Part shown: piece after piece, positions 4,144 through 51,044 of the stretch
How the letters are laid out: every line of letters begins with the position of its first letter
How positions within the stretch are numbered: the stretch's first letter is position 1
Assembly: GCF_040267685.1 (NCBI RefSeq)
Contig: NZ_CP158367.1
Span: 868,001 to 932,000 of the forward strand
Origin: Proteinivorax tanatarense
GTDB taxonomy: Bacteria; Bacillota; Proteinivoracia; Proteinivoracales; Proteinivoracaceae
DNA length: 64,000 bases
Direction of reading: 5' to 3'
Notes under the pieces: generated by a model
Seen by the model: the letters and a program-made list of their open reading frames with translations, nothing else
Databases searched by the model: none
What the model was told of the DNA's origin: nothing
Program-made: the position numbers and the translations under genes

Positions 4144-4159
4144 AATTTCAACCATAATA

Positions 4160-4400
4160 GAAAAGCTGACAGGGGAATAGTAGTTTAGTAAACTTTATAC
4201 AGAAAGGGTTTTAAAGCTGAGAGAAGCCTTAAAGAGCTAAATGAACGACACCTCTATATTGCTGTCGTGTTAACCTATTGGGGGAAAAGCGACCGGGATA
4301 AGGACCGTTATATCTTTTGCTTAAAGTGGCTATTGTACATATAGCAACTAGGGTGGCACCACGGATTTTTGATTCGTCCCTTATTAAGGACGGATTTTTT
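4160..4400 (+). promoter_or_regulatory. T-box riboswitch leader of hisS-aspS
   Basis: A tRNA-sensing T-box leader. Stem I is closed by GACAG (4168-4172) pairing with CTGTC (4262-4266). The specifier side reads GAACGACACC, which places GAC (Asp) at 4247-4249 in the usual register; CAC (His) overlaps it at 4249-4251. The T-box core AGGGTGGCACCACGG is at 4350-4364, and its UGGN bulge is UGGC. A terminator hairpin (4371-4396, 9 bp with T8) follows. Uncharged tRNA binding should favour the antiterminator. C in UGGN pairs with a G73 discriminator, which fits tRNA-Asp rather than tRNA-His (C73). Confidence 0.93.
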
Positions 4401-4432: not shown

Positions 4433-5704
4433 ATGAAATATAAGGTACCTCGAGGAACAAGAGATATTTTAGGTAAAGAAATGCTAATTTGGAATAAGGT
4501 AAATAATTCTATAGAGAAATTAGCGAAACTTAATAACTATCAAAAAATAGAAACCCCTGTATTTGAACAAACAGAACTATTTAAAAGAGGGGTGGGAGAA
4601 ACTACTGATATTGTTGAAAAAGAAATGTATACATTTGACGACAAATCACAAAGAAGTTTAACTTTGCGGCCGGAAGGAACGGCATCTGTAGTTCGAGCTT
4701 TTGTAGAAAATAAGCTCTATGGGGGAAGACTGCCAGTAAAACTTTTTTACAATGGTCCCATGTTTAGATATGAAAAAGCTCAAAAAGGAAGGTATCGACA
4801 ATTTTACCAATTTGGAATTGAAGCCTTAGGTTCAGAAGAGCCTAGTTTAGATGCTGAAGTTATTTTTATTGGCTGGAAACTACTTATGGATGTGGGTATC
4901 AAAGCAGAAGAGGTCAAGGTTCATATTAACAGTGTTGGCTGCAAAGAATGTCGAACAAAATATAAAGAAAAGCTTGTTGAGTACTATCAGGATAAGCTGA
5001 ACAATGTTTGCTCAAACTGCCAAACAAGGTTAGATAAAAACCCATTGCGTTTGTTAGATTGTAAAAATGAAAGTTGCGGTAAATTAGCAGAGCAAGCCCC
5101 ATCTATTTTTGATGTTATTTGCTCAAATTGTAATGAGCATTTTGAACATGTGAAGGTATACTTAGATATATTTAAAGTTCCTTATGTAATAGATAAAAGG
5201 CTAGTAAGAGGACTGGATTACTATACTCAAACGGCCTTTGAATATCGAAATCAAAATGCAACTTCAACCCAAGATGCTTTCGGGGGCGGTGGCAGATATA
5301 ATGGATTAGTGGAAGAATTAGGTGGACCTTTGACTCCTTCAATTGGTCTTGCAATGGGATTAGATAGAATAGTTCTTGCATTGTTAGAAAAAGAGCAGCC
5401 TCAGGACAGCTTAGAATTTTTTGTCGCATGTATGGGGGATGATGGCGTAAATAGATATGCAACAGAGATAATGCAACTTGTCCGAGAAAAAGGTTATAGT
5501 TGTGATAAAGATTATGGCAAAAGAAGCTTCAAAGCACAGATGAGACTTGCAGACAAATGCAATGCAAAAAGGGCTATTATTGTAGGTGAAGAGGAGTTAA
5601 ATAATAAAACATTAACGCTGAAAAACTTTAACAAAGGAAAACAAGAAATTATATCGTTGGAACAATTAAAACAACAACTGGAAAGGGGTAGTTTAAGTGT
5701 CTAA
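4433..5704 (+). CDS. hisS: Histidyl-tRNA synthetase
   Basis: This 423-residue class II synthetase charges tRNA-His. Motifs are PRGTRDI at the N terminus, RPEGTASVVRAF (motif 2 region), FRYEKAQKGRYRQFYQ, the HisRS-specific LVRGLDYYT, GGGGRYNGL and the motif 3 GLAMGLDRI. A C-terminal anticodon-binding domain follows. An AGGAGG site lies 8 bases before ATG 4433. Its end overlaps the aspS start by 8 bases, so the two are co-translated under the T-box. Confidence 0.98.
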   Translation: MKYKVPRGTRDILGKEMLIWNKVNNSIEKLAKLNNYQKIETPVFEQTELFKRGVGETTDIVEKEMYTFDDKSQRSLTLRPEGTASVVRAFVENKLYGGRLPVKLFYNGPMFRYEKAQKGRYRQFYQFGIEALGSEEPSLDAEVIFIGWKLLMDVGIKAEEVKVHINSVGCKECRTKYKEKLVEYYQDKLNNVCSNCQTRLDKNPLRLLDCKNESCGKLAEQAPSIFDVICSNCNEHFEHVKVYLDIFKVPYVIDKRLVRGLDYYTQTAFEYRNQNATSTQDAFGGGGRYNGLVEELGGPLTPSIGLAMGLDRIVLALLEKEQPQDSLEFFVACMGDDGVNRYATEIMQLVREKGYSCDKDYGKRSFKAQMRLADKCNAKRAIIVGEEELNNKTLTLKNFNKGKQEIISLEQLKQQLERGSLSV

Positions 5705-38007: not shown

Positions 38008-38233
38008 ATATAGGCCAAATCGTTAGGTGAGGCTCCTAGAAGAACACAGGCTACTGCCCAGAAATGTCCAGAGACGCCAATGGGTAGAACAGGCACTTCC
38101 GAGTTAAGGATTTGCATAATGTAGCTGATTCTGATTAGAATCTACGTCTTCTAGTGTCAAAGCTAGAACGAAGGGTAAGGCAAAGCTGTATTTTTATGTG
38201 CGTTTAAACGACCCCTTCGTGGGTCGTTTTTTG
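38008..38233 (+). promoter_or_regulatory. M-box (ykoK) Mg2+ riboswitch with terminator
   Basis: Conserved M-box strings are present in order: CGTTAGGTGAGGCTCCT (38021-38037), GGCTACTGCCCAGAAA, GAGACGCCAATGGGT, and AATGTAGCTGATTCT. A terminator follows, AAACGACCC (38206-38214) with GGGTCGTTT (38221-38229) and a T run. ACGAAGGGT (from 38168) can pair with the terminator's loop side, ACCCCTTCGT, as an antiterminator. High Mg2+ should terminate transcription before mgtE. Confidence 0.95.
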
Positions 38234-38250: not shown

Positions 38251-38304
38251 ATGGTAGATGAAGATTGTTATTTTACTTATAATTTTAGGATTTGGAAACA
38301 ATAA
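38251..38304 (+). CDS. Possible 17-codon leader ORF upstream of mgtE
   Basis: ATG 38251 follows GGAGG at a workable distance and encodes MVDEDCYFTYNFRIWKQ, stopping 20 bases before the mgtE start. It could be a leader peptide or chance. Confidence 0.4.
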   Translation: MVDEDCYFTYNFRIWKQ

Positions 38305-38324
38305 AAAAGAAGGAGGAGATAAAA

Positions 38325-39677
38325 ATGAAATTTCAAAAAGTTTTAGAGTTACTGAATAACAATGAAATATCTACATTAAAGGATGTTATTAACAGTTATA
38401 ACAGCTTAGATATTAACTCTATCATTGACCAGCTTGAAGGAGATAAAAAGGCAGTTGTTTTTCGCTTGCTAAATAAAGATAATGCTATAAGCGCTTTTGA
38501 ACTAATGGATATTGATAATCAACAACAGATTTTAGCACTTTTGACAGATGAAAGGGCAAATGAGTTCGTAAATGAGCTAGAACCTGATGATAGGGCAAAG
38601 TTATTAGATGAGTTGCCGGCAAAGGTTGCCAACCGCTTAATGTCTTCGTTGTCAAAAGAGGAGCGAGATAAAACTGCTAATATTTTGGGGTACGAGCCAG
38701 AAACTGCGGGCCGCATAATGAACCCAAATATTTTAAAATTAAATGGTACTATGACAGTGACAGAAGCTGTCAAAAAAATTAAGGAAAGATATAAAGATAT
38801 TGAAGATTTTCACTTTATTTTTGTAACTGATAAAAAAAGGAAACTTGTTGGTTACGTTTCTTTAATGGATGTTATAGTGGCAGACAAAGAAGATAAAATT
38901 GAAGATGTTATGGAACCTAATGTTTATAGCGTTTATACATCTGAAGACCAAGAAAAGGCTTCTCGACTATTACAAAAGGCTGACTTAATAGAACTGCCTG
39001 TTGTTGATAAAGAGGGTAGGTTGTTAGGTGTTATTACTGCTGATGATGCTATGGAAGTCCTTGAAAATGAAGCGACTGAGGATATTTTTGAAAAAGCAGG
39101 TCTTACTACATCTGATAATGAGGTAGATAGAAGTAAAAGAATGATTAACGGAACTGTACTTCAGATATGGAAGGTTAGACTACCATTTTTAATTATAACA
39201 CTAATCGGTGGTTTGACAGCAGGTGCCGTAATTGGCAGCTTTGAAGAAACATTAGAGGCAATTGCAGCTGTGGCTATATTTATTCCAGTAGTAATGGATA
39301 TGGGGGGGAATGTAGGTACCCAATCGTCAACAATTTTTACAAGAGCACTTATTTTAGGTCAGATTGATCGCAAGAGGTTCTCCAAACACTTTGCAAAAGA
39401 GGTAGGAATTGGAGCAAGCATGGGAATGTTATTGGGTATTGTCACTGGAGTTATCGCAGAGGTTTGGCAACAAATCCCTGGAATAGGATTTGCAGTTGGA
39501 ATTGCTTTAGCGTTAACAGTTACCCTAGCAACAGCGTTAGGTTTTGCTATACCGTTCCTTTTAAATAAGTTAGGTTTTGACCAAGCAGCAGGATCGGATC
39601 CAATTATCACAACAATTAAGGATATATCAGGGCTTGCAATTTACTTTTTCCTAGTTACCCATTTCTTAGGACATTAA
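38325..39677 (+). CDS. mgtE: Magnesium transporter MgtE
   Basis: The 450-residue channel has an N-terminal helical N domain (Glu/Asp-rich, about 1-130), two CBS domains (about 135-250) and a C-terminal pore of five helices with PVVMDMGGNVGTQSS. The cytoplasmic domains close the pore when Mg2+ is plentiful. ATG 38325 follows AAGGAGG by 7-8 bases; an upstream in-frame TTG at 38292 is not needed. Transcription is controlled by the M-box. Confidence 0.97.
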   Translation: MKFQKVLELLNNNEISTLKDVINSYNSLDINSIIDQLEGDKKAVVFRLLNKDNAISAFELMDIDNQQQILALLTDERANEFVNELEPDDRAKLLDELPAKVANRLMSSLSKEERDKTANILGYEPETAGRIMNPNILKLNGTMTVTEAVKKIKERYKDIEDFHFIFVTDKKRKLVGYVSLMDVIVADKEDKIEDVMEPNVYSVYTSEDQEKASRLLQKADLIELPVVDKEGRLLGVITADDAMEVLENEATEDIFEKAGLTTSDNEVDRSKRMINGTVLQIWKVRLPFLIITLIGGLTAGAVIGSFEETLEAIAAVAIFIPVVMDMGGNVGTQSSTIFTRALILGQIDRKRFSKHFAKEVGIGASMGMLLGIVTGVIAEVWQQIPGIGFAVGIALALTVTLATALGFAIPFLLNKLGFDQAAGSDPIITTIKDISGLAIYFFLVTHFLGH

Positions 39678-46228: not shown

Positions 46229-46264
46229 AAAAAAGCTGCTCATTTTATTTATGAGCAGCTTTTT
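46229..46264. terminator. Bidirectional terminator between GNAT and MATE genes
   Basis: AAAAAGCTGCTCAT pairs with ATGAGCAGCTTTTT between converging genes. Confidence 0.9.
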
Positions 46265-47633
46265 AGCATTCCATTTTTACTTTTTTAGAAAACTCTTTCT
46301 TTAATGTAGTTTTTAACCATATAATCATTACTATAAAAGTTAATAACTCTGAGATTGGAAAAGCAAACCAAACGGTACTTACAGAGCCAGTAAAAGATAG
46401 GAGGTAAGCTATAGGGAGTAGCAGGATAATTTGTCTTAGAAAGGATAAGGTCAAAGAAGGGAACCCATGCCCAATAGCTTGAAAGGTTGTAGCTCCGATA
46501 ATAGCAGGACCTATGATAGGGAAAGCGATACTGATATTTTTAAAAGTAGTTTCAGTGATAAGAAGTAGCTCATGGTTATCCACAAAAGGGGCTGCAATGA
46601 TATGAGGGAATAATTGGAATAATATAAATCCTGTCCCTGTAAATATAATACTTGCTGCAACACCGTATTTGATGGTTTTCTTTACCCTACCTATGTTTCC
46701 GTTGCTAAAGTTATAGCCTACTAATGGTATATAGCCTTGGGAAAGGCCAAAGACTGGCATGAAAACAAAGGACTGTACCCTAAAATATATACCAGTTGCA
46801 GATAAGGCGAGTTCATTCATTCCTCCTACAATCATGTTAATACCTGCAATCATTATAGCTCCTAACATCTGCATAACTGTTGCTGGAAGTCCTACAGTAT
46901 ATATTTTTTTGACTATATCTTTGTTAAAGGCAAAACCTTTATGAAATTTTGGCTGAACTTCATTTTTCCCCCTTAAAAGTATATAGATGACAGTTGCTGC
47001 TGTAATTATCTTGCTTATAATAGTAGCAATCGCAGCACCTTTTACCTCCATTGCTGGAATGGGGCCAAGACCAAAAATTAAAATTGGATCTAACAATATA
47101 TTAGTAATTGCACCTGCAATCATTGCTATCATCGGTGTTAGAGTATTGCCTTGCCCCCTTAAAACATCACTTATCAAAAAACCTAAAAACATAGGTAGAG
47201 AACCTATTAAAATAATTCGGATATACTGCATTGCATAGGTAGTAGTAAGTGAATCATCGGTAAATAGGCTTATATATCTGTGAGGGAAAAATACACCTAG
47301 CAAAAAAATTATACTGCCATATAAAATTGAAATAACAATGACGTGTTCGGAAGTTTTGACAGCACCATCGTTATCCCCTTTTCCTAACATTCGTGAAATT
47401 AAAGAGTTAGTTCCTACCCCTGTTCCCACAGCTAAAGCTATAAGCATAATGTGAATAGGGAAAGCGATAGAAAGAGCTGCTATAGCTTCATCTCCCAGCT
47501 GTGCTACAAAGAAACTGTCTACTACGTTATATAAAGCTTGAACTCCCATGGCAACGATACCAGGAAGAGAGAGTTTAAATAATAGTGGCAATATAGGCTC
47601 TGTTCCCAATTTATTGCTATTTTTTACTTTGAT
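46263..47633 (-). CDS. MATE-family efflux protein (second copy), probable ATC start
   Basis: The protein is about 456 residues with twelve helices. MATE landmarks are LGTEPILPLLFKLSLPGI near the start and LYNVVDSFFVAQLG. The nearest ordinary start is TTG 47609, but it has no ribosome binding site and cuts off the usual N-terminal stretch. GGAGG (plus-strand 47641-47645) lies 7 bases before an in-frame ATC at 47633, which would give (M)KVKNSNKLGTEP, the expected N terminus. I therefore favour an ATC start. Confidence 0.85.
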   Translation of the reverse strand: MKVKNSNKLGTEPILPLLFKLSLPGIVAMGVQALYNVVDSFFVAQLGDEAIAALSIAFPIHIMLIALAVGTGVGTNSLISRMLGKGDNDGAVKTSEHVIVISILYGSIIFLLGVFFPHRYISLFTDDSLTTTYAMQYIRIILIGSLPMFLGFLISDVLRGQGNTLTPMIAMIAGAITNILLDPILIFGLGPIPAMEVKGAAIATIISKIITAATVIYILLRGKNEVQPKFHKGFAFNKDIVKKIYTVGLPATVMQMLGAIMIAGINMIVGGMNELALSATGIYFRVQSFVFMPVFGLSQGYIPLVGYNFSNGNIGRVKKTIKYGVAASIIFTGTGFILFQLFPHIIAAPFVDNHELLLITETTFKNISIAFPIIGPAIIGATTFQAIGHGFPSLTLSFLRQIILLLPIAYLLSFTGSVSTVWFAFPISELLTFIVMIIWLKTTLKKEFSKKVKMEC

Positions 47634-47696: not shown

Positions 47697-48716
47697 CTAG
47701 TTTTGGGAGGTTTTAAGTACTACCTTTTTCTTAGAGGCAAGGAGAAACACTGTTGAACCAATATAGCCCCCTAGTAGTCCGCCGACTACAGCTAAAATTA
47801 AGGCTGTTACAACAGTAATCGGTGCGTTAAAAGCAAAAGGTGCAAGCATACCAGGTATTGGTGAAGCTGTACCTGGAGCATTAGATACAATACCAAAGTA
47901 AACAGCAATAAGGCCACCTATCCCACCACCTAGGAAATTAGTAAAATAAATGGGAAGTGGATTGGTGGTAATTATGTCTGCTTGTGTTAGAGGCTCTAAC
48001 ATTACCGCTACCACATTGCTGTTATCCCCAAATTTTAACCTTTTAAATAAAACGCCATTAGCAAAAGCGCCAGCAAAACTGGCAATTGATGCTATGCCCA
48101 TGGCTAAACCTTGTAGGCCAAGCATAGCAGTTAACGCCATCGAGCTTAGAGGAGAAGAGCAAATTACTTTAATGATACCTCCTAAAAAGAAACCCATAAC
48201 GACTGGAGATTGCTCAGAAGCTATAACAATCATATCCCCGATATTTAACAAAGTGGCATCAACTATAGGGATTGTAATAACTGCAACAAACCTGCTAAAA
48301 GGTGCTAGCACTAAAGCTCCCACAATGGTGCTTACGCCACTTGGTAGTTTTTCTTCAAGTTTAGGAGCAATGATTCCCACTAAATATCCAGCTACAAAAC
48401 CAGGGATGATACCAACCTCTAATAGAGCAGCTCCAGCTACAACTGCAAAAACTGGGTTGACGCCCATTTTAATTGGGACTAATATTGCTGCAATGGTTCC
48501 ACTTAGACTTCCAGCAGAAACTCCAACCTCCTGCAAAAATTCAATGCCAAACAAGTCACCGCTTATAAAGTTGTGTACCGCTTCAACAAGAAAAGTAGCG
48601 ATGGCAGTGCCTGCTAAAGCAGACATTGCTTCCTTACCCATGGGGGCTTTAAAACTAAAGAGCGAAAATAAAGTAAGTGCAAAAATAAGTAATGATAACC
48701 CGATAATAGTCTCCAT
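47697..48716 (-). CDS. PTS_EIIC_2-family membrane protein under a glycine riboswitch
   Basis: The 339-residue membrane protein has about nine or ten helices and resembles the PTS_EIIC_2 family (annotated PTS sugar subunit IIC). Glycine-rich helices, SSPLSSMAL and PIPGMLAPFAFNAP are the landmarks. No EIIA, EIIB or sugar gene is near it. Its mRNA begins with a tandem glycine riboswitch and terminator, so glycine, not sugar, probably controls it; a glycine or related transporter is possible. Start ATG 48716 after AAGGAGG. Confidence 0.8.
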   Translation of the reverse strand: METIIGLSLLIFALTLFSLFSFKAPMGKEAMSALAGTAIATFLVEAVHNFISGDLFGIEFLQEVGVSAGSLSGTIAAILVPIKMGVNPVFAVVAGAALLEVGIIPGFVAGYLVGIIAPKLEEKLPSGVSTIVGALVLAPFSRFVAVITIPIVDATLLNIGDMIVIASEQSPVVMGFFLGGIIKVICSSPLSSMALTAMLGLQGLAMGIASIASFAGAFANGVLFKRLKFGDNSNVVAVMLEPLTQADIITTNPLPIYFTNFLGGGIGGLIAVYFGIVSNAPGTASPIPGMLAPFAFNAPITVVTALILAVVGGLLGGYIGSTVFLLASKKKVVLKTSQN

Positions 48717-48752
48717 TTATGAAAACCTCCTTGTAAATGAATTTTTAAGGCA

Positions 48753-48804
48753 TATAAAAAAGAGAGCCATTTATGCATAGTAGTTCTATGCTAAATAGCT
48801 CTCT
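48753..48804 (-). terminator. Expression-platform terminator of the glycine riboswitch
   Basis: AGAGAGC...GCTCTCT long stem (48761-48804) is followed on the minus strand by a T6 run. Confidence 0.9.
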
Positions 48805-48985
48805 GTCCTTTTGCCTGATAGTTTGCTTGATTGTGAAATCAAGTTGCTTCTTCGGCGCATATAGTCTCTCCAGAGTTGTGTCACGTTACCATCCTTTTGC
48901 CTGAAAGTTTCGGATAAAAGTATTAGCTTCCTTTTATCTTTTCTCCTTCGGCGTCTGCAAGCAGATCTTTCAGGTAACAGTCATC
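48803..48985 (-). promoter_or_regulatory. Tandem glycine riboswitch
   Basis: Read on the minus strand: a first aptamer with GACGCCGAAGGAGAAA and TTTCAGGCAAAAGGATGG (about 48980-48889), a linker, and a second aptamer with GGAGAGACTATATGCGCCGAAGAAGC-like core and ATCAGGCAAAAGGACAG (about 48876-48803). The GCCGAA(G) and CAGGCAAAAGGA cores are the family hallmarks. GGTAAC/GTTACC closes the first aptamer region. Gene-on control by glycine is the usual mode. Confidence 0.94.
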
Positions 48986-49032
48986 CACCTATATATAATT
49001 ATAATAACTAATTATCGTTTCTATTAATTATA

Positions 49033-49061
49033 ATTATATATTAAACATAAAATATTTTCAA
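49033..49061 (-). promoter_or_regulatory. Promoter of the glycine riboswitch transcript
   Basis: On the minus strand TTGAAA and TATAAT are 17 bp apart. Confidence 0.85.
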
Positions 49062-49088: not shown

Positions 49089-49835
49089 TTAATTTAACTT
49101 GCTTTTGATAAAGTCTCCCTCAGTAAGCCAATTCCAATATTTTTTGGGTATATGATGTTGAAGTAATTTTAAATTTTTTCTACTGGGGATGTATTGAGAT
49201 TCATAATATTTTTTCCATACAGACGTAAAATCATCATTTTTGATAAATGGGATATAATTATCTGCTTTTCCGATTATAATTTCATCTACGCTATTTAGTT
49301 CCACTGTATCACTACCGACAAGTAACACTAAATGTTCCTTTGGATATCTTTTGCGGAATCTATATAATATCAAATCTGCTGTATTATGTTCAAGGAGTGC
49401 TACTCCAGCGAGCTTATGGTTTACAGGAGTAAACCTAATAAGCCCTAGCATTTTATGAACTTCACGTAAACAGCAATTTTTGCGTTTTGTGAGCTTAGTA
49501 AAAACTGGGTTATAGTCGCTGCAAAACTTTATTACAGAATTCTCAATAGCATTCTTAAGCCCTTCAATTATTAAACTATGTTTATCATCAGAACTATAAC
49601 GCAAATTTAATAGAACAAGGGGGATTAGCATACTGTTTTGTATTTCCTTTTTTGCACTTTGAAACCTTGGATTAAGCAGAAAAATATCGCTCCAGCTGAT
49701 ACTATTTACTGGAGTGATATTGATAGAAAATAAAGAATTATCAACTTCGCTACTGTGGAGGGGAAACTGCCCAGTGTGGGAATATATAAAAGCACTTTTT
49801 AACATATCGTTTACAGAATCGGAGTAAACATACAT
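49089..49835 (-). CDS. DUF4130/TIGR03915-family DNA metabolism protein
   Basis: The 248-residue protein resembles the TIGR03915 (SAM-linked, DUF4130) group that is always found with the radical SAM DNA-repair protein encoded just upstream. The N terminus has VYSDSVNDMLKSAF and the middle LREVHKMLGLIRF. In many bacteria DUF4130 is fused to a uracil-DNA-glycosylase domain; here there is none. It lies 18 bases downstream of the radical SAM gene. Likely DNA lesion processing. Confidence 0.85.
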   Translation of the reverse strand: MYVYSDSVNDMLKSAFIYSHTGQFPLHSSEVDNSLFSINITPVNSISWSDIFLLNPRFQSAKKEIQNSMLIPLVLLNLRYSSDDKHSLIIEGLKNAIENSVIKFCSDYNPVFTKLTKRKNCCLREVHKMLGLIRFTPVNHKLAGVALLEHNTADLILYRFRKRYPKEHLVLLVGSDTVELNSVDEIIIGKADNYIPFIKNDDFTSVWKKYYESQYIPSRKNLKLLQHHIPKKYWNWLTEGDFIKSKLN

Positions 49836-49853
49836 TTATCACTCACCCCTTAG

Positions 49854-51044
49854 TTAGAAATCAAAACTTAATTGTTTAACCTTATTCTGATTTTTATAGA
49901 ATTTTTCTATGCTGTCAAAGACTTTACCGTTTAAGGAAATAAAAGGCAAAGCTCTTTTAACAACCACTCTAATTGCTTTTAACTGATTGGGATCTAAAAT
50001 TTTAGTTGTTCTTCGTAGCTTAATAATTCTTTTTGCAGAAACAGGACCTATGCCAGGTACTTTAAGCAATTTATCAAAGTTAGCGGTGTTAACTTCTATG
50101 GGATAAAGTGCTAAATTATTTAATGCAAAAGCTAGCTTTGGGTCCATATTGTCCTGTAAGTTGCCATTTATAAAAGTAAGATCATGTACTTTAAAGTTAT
50201 ATAACCTAATTAGAAAATCGCTTTGGTATAGTCGGTTTTCCCTTAAAAGTGGTGTGCTACTTAAACTTTCTAGTGGCGTGCCCATAACTGGTGTAAATGC
50301 AGAAAAATAAGCTCTTTTTACTCCAAAGTTGTTATATAGGCTATCTACTCTAGACAAGATATCCTTATCTGTTTCCCCACTGGCACCTACAATAAATTGA
50401 GTTGACTGATTACATTTATTTGTGCCTTGGTATTTATCGATAGTTTTAAAGGTGTTAAGTATATCTTTGTTAAAATTTTTTGTTTTGCTTAACTTGTTTA
50501 AATGTTTTTGTTGTGGTGCTTCACAATTTATAGAAACTCGGTTGGCAAGGGTACATGCAGCTTCTATTTGCTCTTCTTTTGCTCCCGGTAAGATTTTTAA
50601 ATGGATGTAACCATTGAAATTGTGTTTGTACCTTATAATTTCAATACACTGCAACATTTCATCCATAGTCTGAAAAGTAGTGTTTTTTACACCAGAGCTT
50701 AAAAATAAACCTTCTACATAATTACGACGATAAAATTCTATGAATAATGAAGCTAACTCATTGGCAGTAAAAGAAGTGCGCTTAACATCTCGCTGTCGCC
50801 GGTTGGGGCAATAGCAGCAGTCTTTTTGACATACATTTGTCATTAACACTTTTAACAGAGAAATACAACGCCCATCTGGAGTAAAGGAATGACAAACGCC
50901 ACATGAAGATGTTGTTCCTAATCCCAGTTTTGATCCAGAAAATACTTTTTTATGATTTACAGAGGTAGACGCACAAACATCATACTTGGCTCCCTCACCT
51001 AAAATAACTAATTTTTCAAACGAGCTTAAAGTCATGCTTTTCAC
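49854..51044 (-). CDS. Radical SAM DNA modification/repair protein (TIGR03916-like)
   Basis: The 396-residue protein has a radical SAM core with CQKDCCYC (Cx3Cx2C) and a C-terminal helix-hairpin-helix DNA-binding motif (LLKVPGIGPVSAKRIIKLRR). It matches the putative DNA modification/repair radical SAM family that partners DUF4130 proteins. The upstream region carries a LexA-like box over the -35. GAGGTG precedes ATG 51044. The lesion substrate is unknown. Confidence 0.9.
   Translation of the reverse strand: MKSMTLSSFEKLVILGEGAKYDVCASTSVNHKKVFSGSKLGLGTTSSCGVCHSFTPDGRCISLLKVLMTNVCQKDCCYCPNRRQRDVKRTSFTANELASLFIEFYRRNYVEGLFLSSGVKNTTFQTMDEMLQCIEIIRYKHNFNGYIHLKILPGAKEEQIEAACTLANRVSINCEAPQQKHLNKLSKTKNFNKDILNTFKTIDKYQGTNKCNQSTQFIVGASGETDKDILSRVDSLYNNFGVKRAYFSAFTPVMGTPLESLSSTPLLRENRLYQSDFLIRLYNFKVHDLTFINGNLQDNMDPKLAFALNNLALYPIEVNTANFDKLLKVPGIGPVSAKRIIKLRRTTKILDPNQLKAIRVVVKRALPFISLNGKVFDSIEKFYKNQNKVKQLSFDF

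Follow-up and report, generated by a model that had tools for sequence, protein, structure and literature searches.

A glycine riboswitch upstream of a PTS_EIIC_2-type gene points to a probable PTS-independent transporter of glycine or small amino acids

Within the 64,000 nucleotides of Proteinivorax tanatarense DNA analysed here (the window), a tandem glycine riboswitch lies upstream of a gene for a membrane protein of the PTS_EIIC_2 type (PF13303, the family also annotated as PfoR/COG3641). Why should a gene of a family annotated as a sugar phosphotransferase system (PTS) component be controlled by glycine? The answer that we favour, with a probability of roughly 0.6, is that the gene encodes a transporter for glycine or small amino acids that is induced by glycine and works independently of the PTS, acting as an importer or bidirectional facilitator for catabolism; transport itself, glycine as its substrate and its direction are what we infer. 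What the sequence shows is the riboswitch, its conservation, the geometry of its platform, a predicted EIIC fold and, in carriers lacking enzyme I, independence of the PTS. The RNA appears ordinary, and what would be new here is the target gene, and that an EIIC-fold family has left the PTS. The features of the locus are collected in Table 1.

Table 1. Features of the locus, in window coordinates.
Feature	Position	Strand	Evidence
Putative sigma-A promoter, TTGAAA-17 nt-TATAAT	49033..49061	−	11/12 matches; counterpart in sister genome G004
Tandem glycine riboswitch, two aptamers, leader-linker GGAUGA...UGACA	48799..48988	−	RF03166, 116.5 bits (gathering threshold 110), E 4e-24 (Rfam search)
Glycine aptamer I, J1/2 UGAAAG in place of UGGAGA	48879..48984	−	RF00504, 53.2 bits (gathering threshold 32); alignments
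Glycine aptamer II, ordinary core GGAGAG / CCGAAGAAGC / CUAUCAGG / AAAAGGAC	48793..48883	−	RF00504, 48.4 bits (gathering threshold 32); alignment
P1(II) 3′ strand CAGAG, predicted switching strand, overlapping the terminator 5′ arm	48801..48805	−	P1 pairs and terminator fold
Intrinsic terminator, hairpin AGAGAGCUAUUUAGCAUAG..CUAUGCAUAAAUGGCUCUCU and U-tract	48754..48804 (hairpin 48804-48761)	−	RNA folding; fold of 48815-48740, −32.2 kcal/mol, z = −7.9 against shuffles
Ribosome-binding site GGAGG	48726..48730	−	Sequence
Membrane protein of the PTS_EIIC_2 subfamily (339 aa), proposed to transport glycine or small amino acids without the PTS	47697..48716	−	PF13303; EIIC-like fold; homologue context
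MATE-family exporter gene, next on the same strand	46263..47633	−	Profile match; same order in G004, 78% identical

The leader RNA and its predicted switching

The riboswitch is located 83 nt upstream of the PF13303 gene, with the terminator in between. Both glycine aptamer cores described on the minus strand in an earlier note on this DNA were matched singly by RF00504 well above its threshold, and the terminator that it placed between riboswitch and gene was recovered by RNA folding as a hairpin followed by a U-tract; a simple terminator scan missed this hairpin, which its bulge and length probably explain. The 17-bp-spaced promoter that the note proposed is present as a sequence, but sites of this kind number two in this AT-rich stretch against 2.7 expected by chance, which is not above chance. 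The sister genome G004 carries TTGCCA-17-TATAAT at the corresponding place, lending some support, and a promoter at 49061-49033 is plausible.

The P1 helix of aptamer II pairs CUCUG (48875-48871) with CAGAG (48805-48801), and the last four bases of the CAGAG strand double as the foot of the 5′ arm of the terminator. According to the model, the leader without glycine would form the terminator, its 5′ arm using the 3′ strand of P1(II). Glycine would fill aptamer II, with aptamer I helping, and P1 would close; because the P1(II) strand and the terminator arm share bases, the base of the hairpin beside the U-tract would then be lost and transcription would continue. The same overlap between P1(II) and terminator was found in the leaders of the homologues, those of L016 and L019 being judged by eye, and also at the window genome's own gcvT and grd riboswitches.

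The window switch therefore reads as an ON geometry, a sign that bears on the direction of transport and on which the earlier note did not remark. Three sister genomes (G028, G037 and G122) allow a comparison with the Na+/alanine-glycine symporter (AGCS, PF01235), since there both the PTS_EIIC_2 gene and the AGCS gene, which encode membrane proteins of unrelated families, are each preceded by a glycine riboswitch. In the AGCS leaders the terminator is separate. The 5′ base of this hairpin is AGAGGC or CCAGAG and is able to pair (by eye) with GCCUCU or CUCUGG, the 5′ strand of P1(II), an arrangement that reads as the opposite, OFF geometry. Judged by these pairings, the control of the PTS_EIIC_2 gene would resemble that of the glycine-degrading enzymes and be the reverse of that of the symporter that scavenges glycine. 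ON wiring would be compatible with a catabolic importer or with an exporter, and incompatible with a scavenging importer.

No terminator was seen between the transporter gene and the MATE gene that follows it, and the two may be co-transcribed in this genus. The annotated TTG start of the MATE gene is TTA in G004, whereas an in-frame ATC (47633), preceded by a GGAGG, is shared by the two genomes and may be its real, non-canonical start.

Recurrence of the riboswitch–gene pairing

A scan of genome contigs returned 14 homologues of the window protein, and a glycine riboswitch lay just upstream in 6 of the 13 that were checked against Rfam. The family was also searched in 297 genomes of the Alkaliphilus order, close members being those that scored 370 bits or more, and gene positions were joined to RF00504 matches as read from coordinate tables. 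Two clearly separate groups emerged, one about 45–71% identical to the window protein and the other, canonical PF13303, at about 24–33%. Among the matches listed, the riboswitch occurred in at least 11 of the 23 order genomes with close members and in none of the 45 with more distant ones. The window subfamily is a divergent PF13303 branch (about 45–88% identical to the window protein), and a tandem riboswitch is found directly upstream of its gene in at least 17 genomes of several families, the window genome included (G000, G004, G013, G014, G015, G018, G020, G021, G028, G032, G037, G044, G069, G112, G122, G131 and G135). The earlier note had spoken of PTS_EIIC_2 genes as a whole; a search of their 5′ regions with RF00504 upheld the pairing in these genomes of the subfamily, but found a tandem riboswitch at none of eight canonical PF13303 loci. 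Riboswitch control thus concerns part of one PF13303 subfamily, not PTS_EIIC_2 as a whole.

Recurrence in at least 16 genomes besides that of the window excludes a chance pairing, and because so many genomes share it the likely substrate of the protein is glycine or some comparable small amino acid, not a sugar. On a maximum-likelihood protein tree the distribution is most simply explained by four changes of riboswitch state, at least two of which are forced by well-supported branches. One riboswitch-controlled homologue, in Caloramator sp. mosi_1 (L019), is apparently interrupted by a stop codon or frameshift, its longest open reading frame being 173 aa. Among the papers searched, none ties PF13303/COG3641 to a riboswitch, but an earlier prediction is possible; one study refers to three riboswitch-controlled glycine transporter orthologues (PMC3766115).

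Most of the close members that lack an upstream riboswitch have a regulator as their neighbour. This is a membrane histidine kinase together with a YcbB-domain (PF08664) response regulator in G120, G234, G167, G230, G228, G017, G410 and G672, and the response regulator alone within a short flank in G499 and G208; a membrane protein of the same type without the kinase lies beside L014, L017 and L024. The combination of regulator and kinase resembles GlnK-GlnL (YcbA-YcbB), a type of two-component system that in Bacillus subtilis goes with induced uptake of amino acids, although the window locus itself has no such system. In G234 a tandem glycine riboswitch (L065, C23:141847-142041) sits between the transporter gene and the two-component kinase and regulator genes, and may control these regulators. 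We consider it fairly probable that a branch of EIIC-fold proteins left the sugar PTS and became PTS-independent amino-acid transporters, switched on through glycine riboswitches or by GlnK/GlnL-like systems according to lineage. If so, the swap between riboswitch and two-component system on orthologous genes would be a clean case of regulatory replacement.

Substrate and direction of the proposed transport

The two other glycine riboswitches of the window genome precede gcvT-gcvH (L002) and grdX-trxB (L003), and because these genes are present under glycine riboswitches the organism is very likely a glycine fermenter. In the order sample, the glycine reductase subunit GrdA was found in 20 of the 23 genomes with close members and in 102 of the 229 that lack the family (Fisher p 1e-4, relatedness ignored). 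In the proposed mechanism, the EIIC-fold protein would work without a phosphotransferase chain and take glycine, or small amino acids that resemble it, through the membrane for breakdown by glycine cleavage and glycine reductase. Such a protein would supply a missing piece of glycine (Stickland) fermentation, whose induced glycine carrier usually goes unnamed.

Genes of amino-acid catabolism also adjoin several homologues: grdX and grdG (sarcosine reductase) are near L015/L071 and L069, and sdaAA and sdaAB (L-serine dehydratase) near L022, L023 and L077. All of these are loci without a riboswitch, and no sarcosine reductase or serine dehydratase neighbours were seen in the riboswitch-bearing part of the subfamily. 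These neighbours bear on the direction of transport. The induced protein could be an exporter, a relief valve that lets out excess glycine for detoxification or as overflow beside gcv and grd. Its apparent ON geometry, opposite to the OFF type seen at the AGCS importers of G028, G037 and G122, would suit such a role, an EIIC-fold facilitator without phosphorylation could run outward, and in the window genus a MATE exporter gene comes next. However, homologues beside serine dehydratase or sarcosine reductase genes better fit the import of a growth substrate, and the GlnK/GlnL-type partner is known from induced uptake, so that we regard an exporter as unlikely, if the strongest of the alternatives, and import for catabolism as somewhat more likely than export.

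The same neighbours could instead indicate that the substrate is a relative of glycine, such as serine, sarcosine or a glycine peptide, with the riboswitch only reporting the catabolic state of the cell. We give this less credence still, as the neighbours in question occur only where the riboswitch is missing, and elsewhere it is the glycine riboswitch that the loci have in common. A transporter of glycine or small amino acids that serves catabolism remains our preferred reading.

The EIIC-like protein, the phosphotransferase system and the riboswitch class

The earlier note described a single PTS_EIIC_2 gene with neither EIIA nor EIIB, and this holds: residues 29–330 match PF13303 with 173 bits (cut-off 28.9), the gene is the only PF13303 gene of the genome, and no EIIA or EIIB gene was found among the adjoining open reading frames. 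No other profile scored above its cut-off, and there was no match to AGCS (PF01235). An AlphaFold2 model of the protein (mean pLDDT 83.8, pTM 0.80) was compared with the PDB using Foldseek, and the three best matches were PtsG models (TM-score 0.49–0.55), the only ones in the list with a probability of 1.00; the best was PDB 8qsr, with a TM-score of 0.55. The model therefore suggests that the window protein has the EIIC membrane fold. Sequence similarity to glucose-type EIIC was not detectable (hhalign probability 1%) and no sequence relative was found in the PDB. The motif EPLTQ (241–245) is invariant in the 32 members compared.

While the overall fold is shared with PtsG, the window protein has no EIIB or EIIA domain and its subfamily occurs in genomes without enzyme I. 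Its likeness to canonical PF13303 proteins consists of the Pfam match over most of its length and of an occurrence as a solitary gene; the two differ in sequence, with an identity of only about 25–33%, and in the tie of the window subfamily to glycine riboswitches or to genes of amino-acid catabolism. No cognate EIIA or EIIB gene was seen beside any member examined, canonical ones included (neighbours partly identified by eye). Among the canonical genes, one follows molybdenum-hydroxylase-like genes and others are near glpA/glpB-like genes (by eye). The former, at L096 (4751-5782), comes directly after them and hints at other non-sugar substrates in PF13303.

With regard to PTS-INDEPENDENCE, 14 of 36 carrier genomes were without the N-terminal domain of enzyme I (PF05524); several of these 14 are metagenome-assembled or draft genomes and may be incomplete. 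Five genomes without it bear the riboswitch (G018, G020, G028, G032 and G044), and since G028 is nearly one contig (3.26 Mb) an assembly artefact is unlikely there. Where enzyme I is truly missing, transport cannot depend on the PTS. A parallel is Clostridium acidurici, whose genome has an orphan EIIC and HPr, no enzyme I and no functional PTS, and which uses no sugars, ferments purines and metabolises glycine (PMC3519856); its Curi_c00230 is a candidate member of the window subfamily. The window genome does carry enzyme I.

Could the protein nevertheless be a true sugar-PTS EIIC that obtains EIIA and EIIB from elsewhere in the genome, its control by glycine being a quirk? The fold match to PtsG and the enzyme I of the window genome would fit, as would a ptsG gene near Clostridium-type members and ptsHI near the member in G148. 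We rejected this as the main reading and hold it to be very improbable, given the many carriers without enzyme I, the lack of an EIIA or EIIB partner beside the members read, the absence of profile similarity to glucose-type EIIC and the conservation of the glycine riboswitch. The earlier note had counted homologues with sugar-PTS neighbours and no glycine riboswitch as evidence against its proposal; many homologues do lack the riboswitch, yet they show no consistent sugar-PTS partners. Its suggestion that the protein carries glycine or a metabolite related to it, and no sugar, is well supported for the subfamily, by the riboswitch in at least 17 genomes, the frequent lack of enzyme I, the serine dehydratase and sarcosine reductase neighbours and the want of an EIIA or EIIB of its own, but not for PTS_EIIC_2 as a whole. 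If this reading is true, a family annotated as a sugar PTS component would be an amino-acid transporter and the EIIC fold would be usable outside group translocation.

The glycine link would lose its meaning if the RNA were a glycine-GGAnGA variant with a changed ligand. Weinberg and colleagues reportedly described variant glycine riboswitches in 2017, and RF03166 was the best-scoring model for the window RNA. The consensus core of aptamer II in this model is CCUACGAGG...CCAACUGG, which is absent from the window riboswitch in the model alignment; the RNA instead has CCGAAGAAGC...CUAUCAGG, the core motifs GGAGAG, CCGAAG and CAGG..AAAAGGAC were all found in the RF00504 alignment, and aptamer II on its own was assigned to RF00504. 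RF03166 is a two-aptamer model to which the gcvT riboswitch (86.7 bits) and the grd riboswitch (79.2 bits) of this genome also align, as do the leaders L011, L012, L033 and L036 of homologous genes (98–109 bits, under the curated cut-off of 110). Because of these matches and the missing variant core, we take the window RNA to be an ordinary glycine riboswitch, for which the 'variant' label of RF03166 is misleading. J1/2 of aptamer I is UGAAAG in the window and in G004 (L033) and UGGAGA or UGAGGAG at most sister loci, where both aptamers have a canonical J1/2. Glycine binding by aptamer I may be weak or absent, the site being possibly weakened or retuned. Some variant glycine RNAs have been reported to reject glycine (PMC9481103), and the altered J1/2 of aptamer I in the window and in G004 would fit such a variant, but with the variant core of aptamer II absent and J1/2 canonical in both aptamers at most sister loci, a changed ligand is hardly to be expected. 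The RNA shares with the tandem ON type of gcvT operons (RF00504) its two aptamers, both above the Rfam cut-off, the kink-turn leader/linker motif and the overlap of P1(II) with the terminator; it differs in the J1/2 of aptamer I and in its target, a PTS_EIIC_2-type membrane gene rather than gcv, grd or AGCS.

The window holds further regulatory RNAs and a gene pair. An M-box (magnesium) riboswitch (38012-38183, plus strand, 150.6 bits) lies upstream of the open reading frame 38292-39677, and a T-box leader (4157-4384, plus strand, 98.8 bits) precedes a histidyl-tRNA synthetase-like open reading frame at 4433. On the minus strand, 49089-51044 contains a TIGR03915/TIGR03916-type pair, a putative DNA-repair radical SAM protein and the DUF4130 protein linked to it, whose score falls short of the NCBIfam cut-off.
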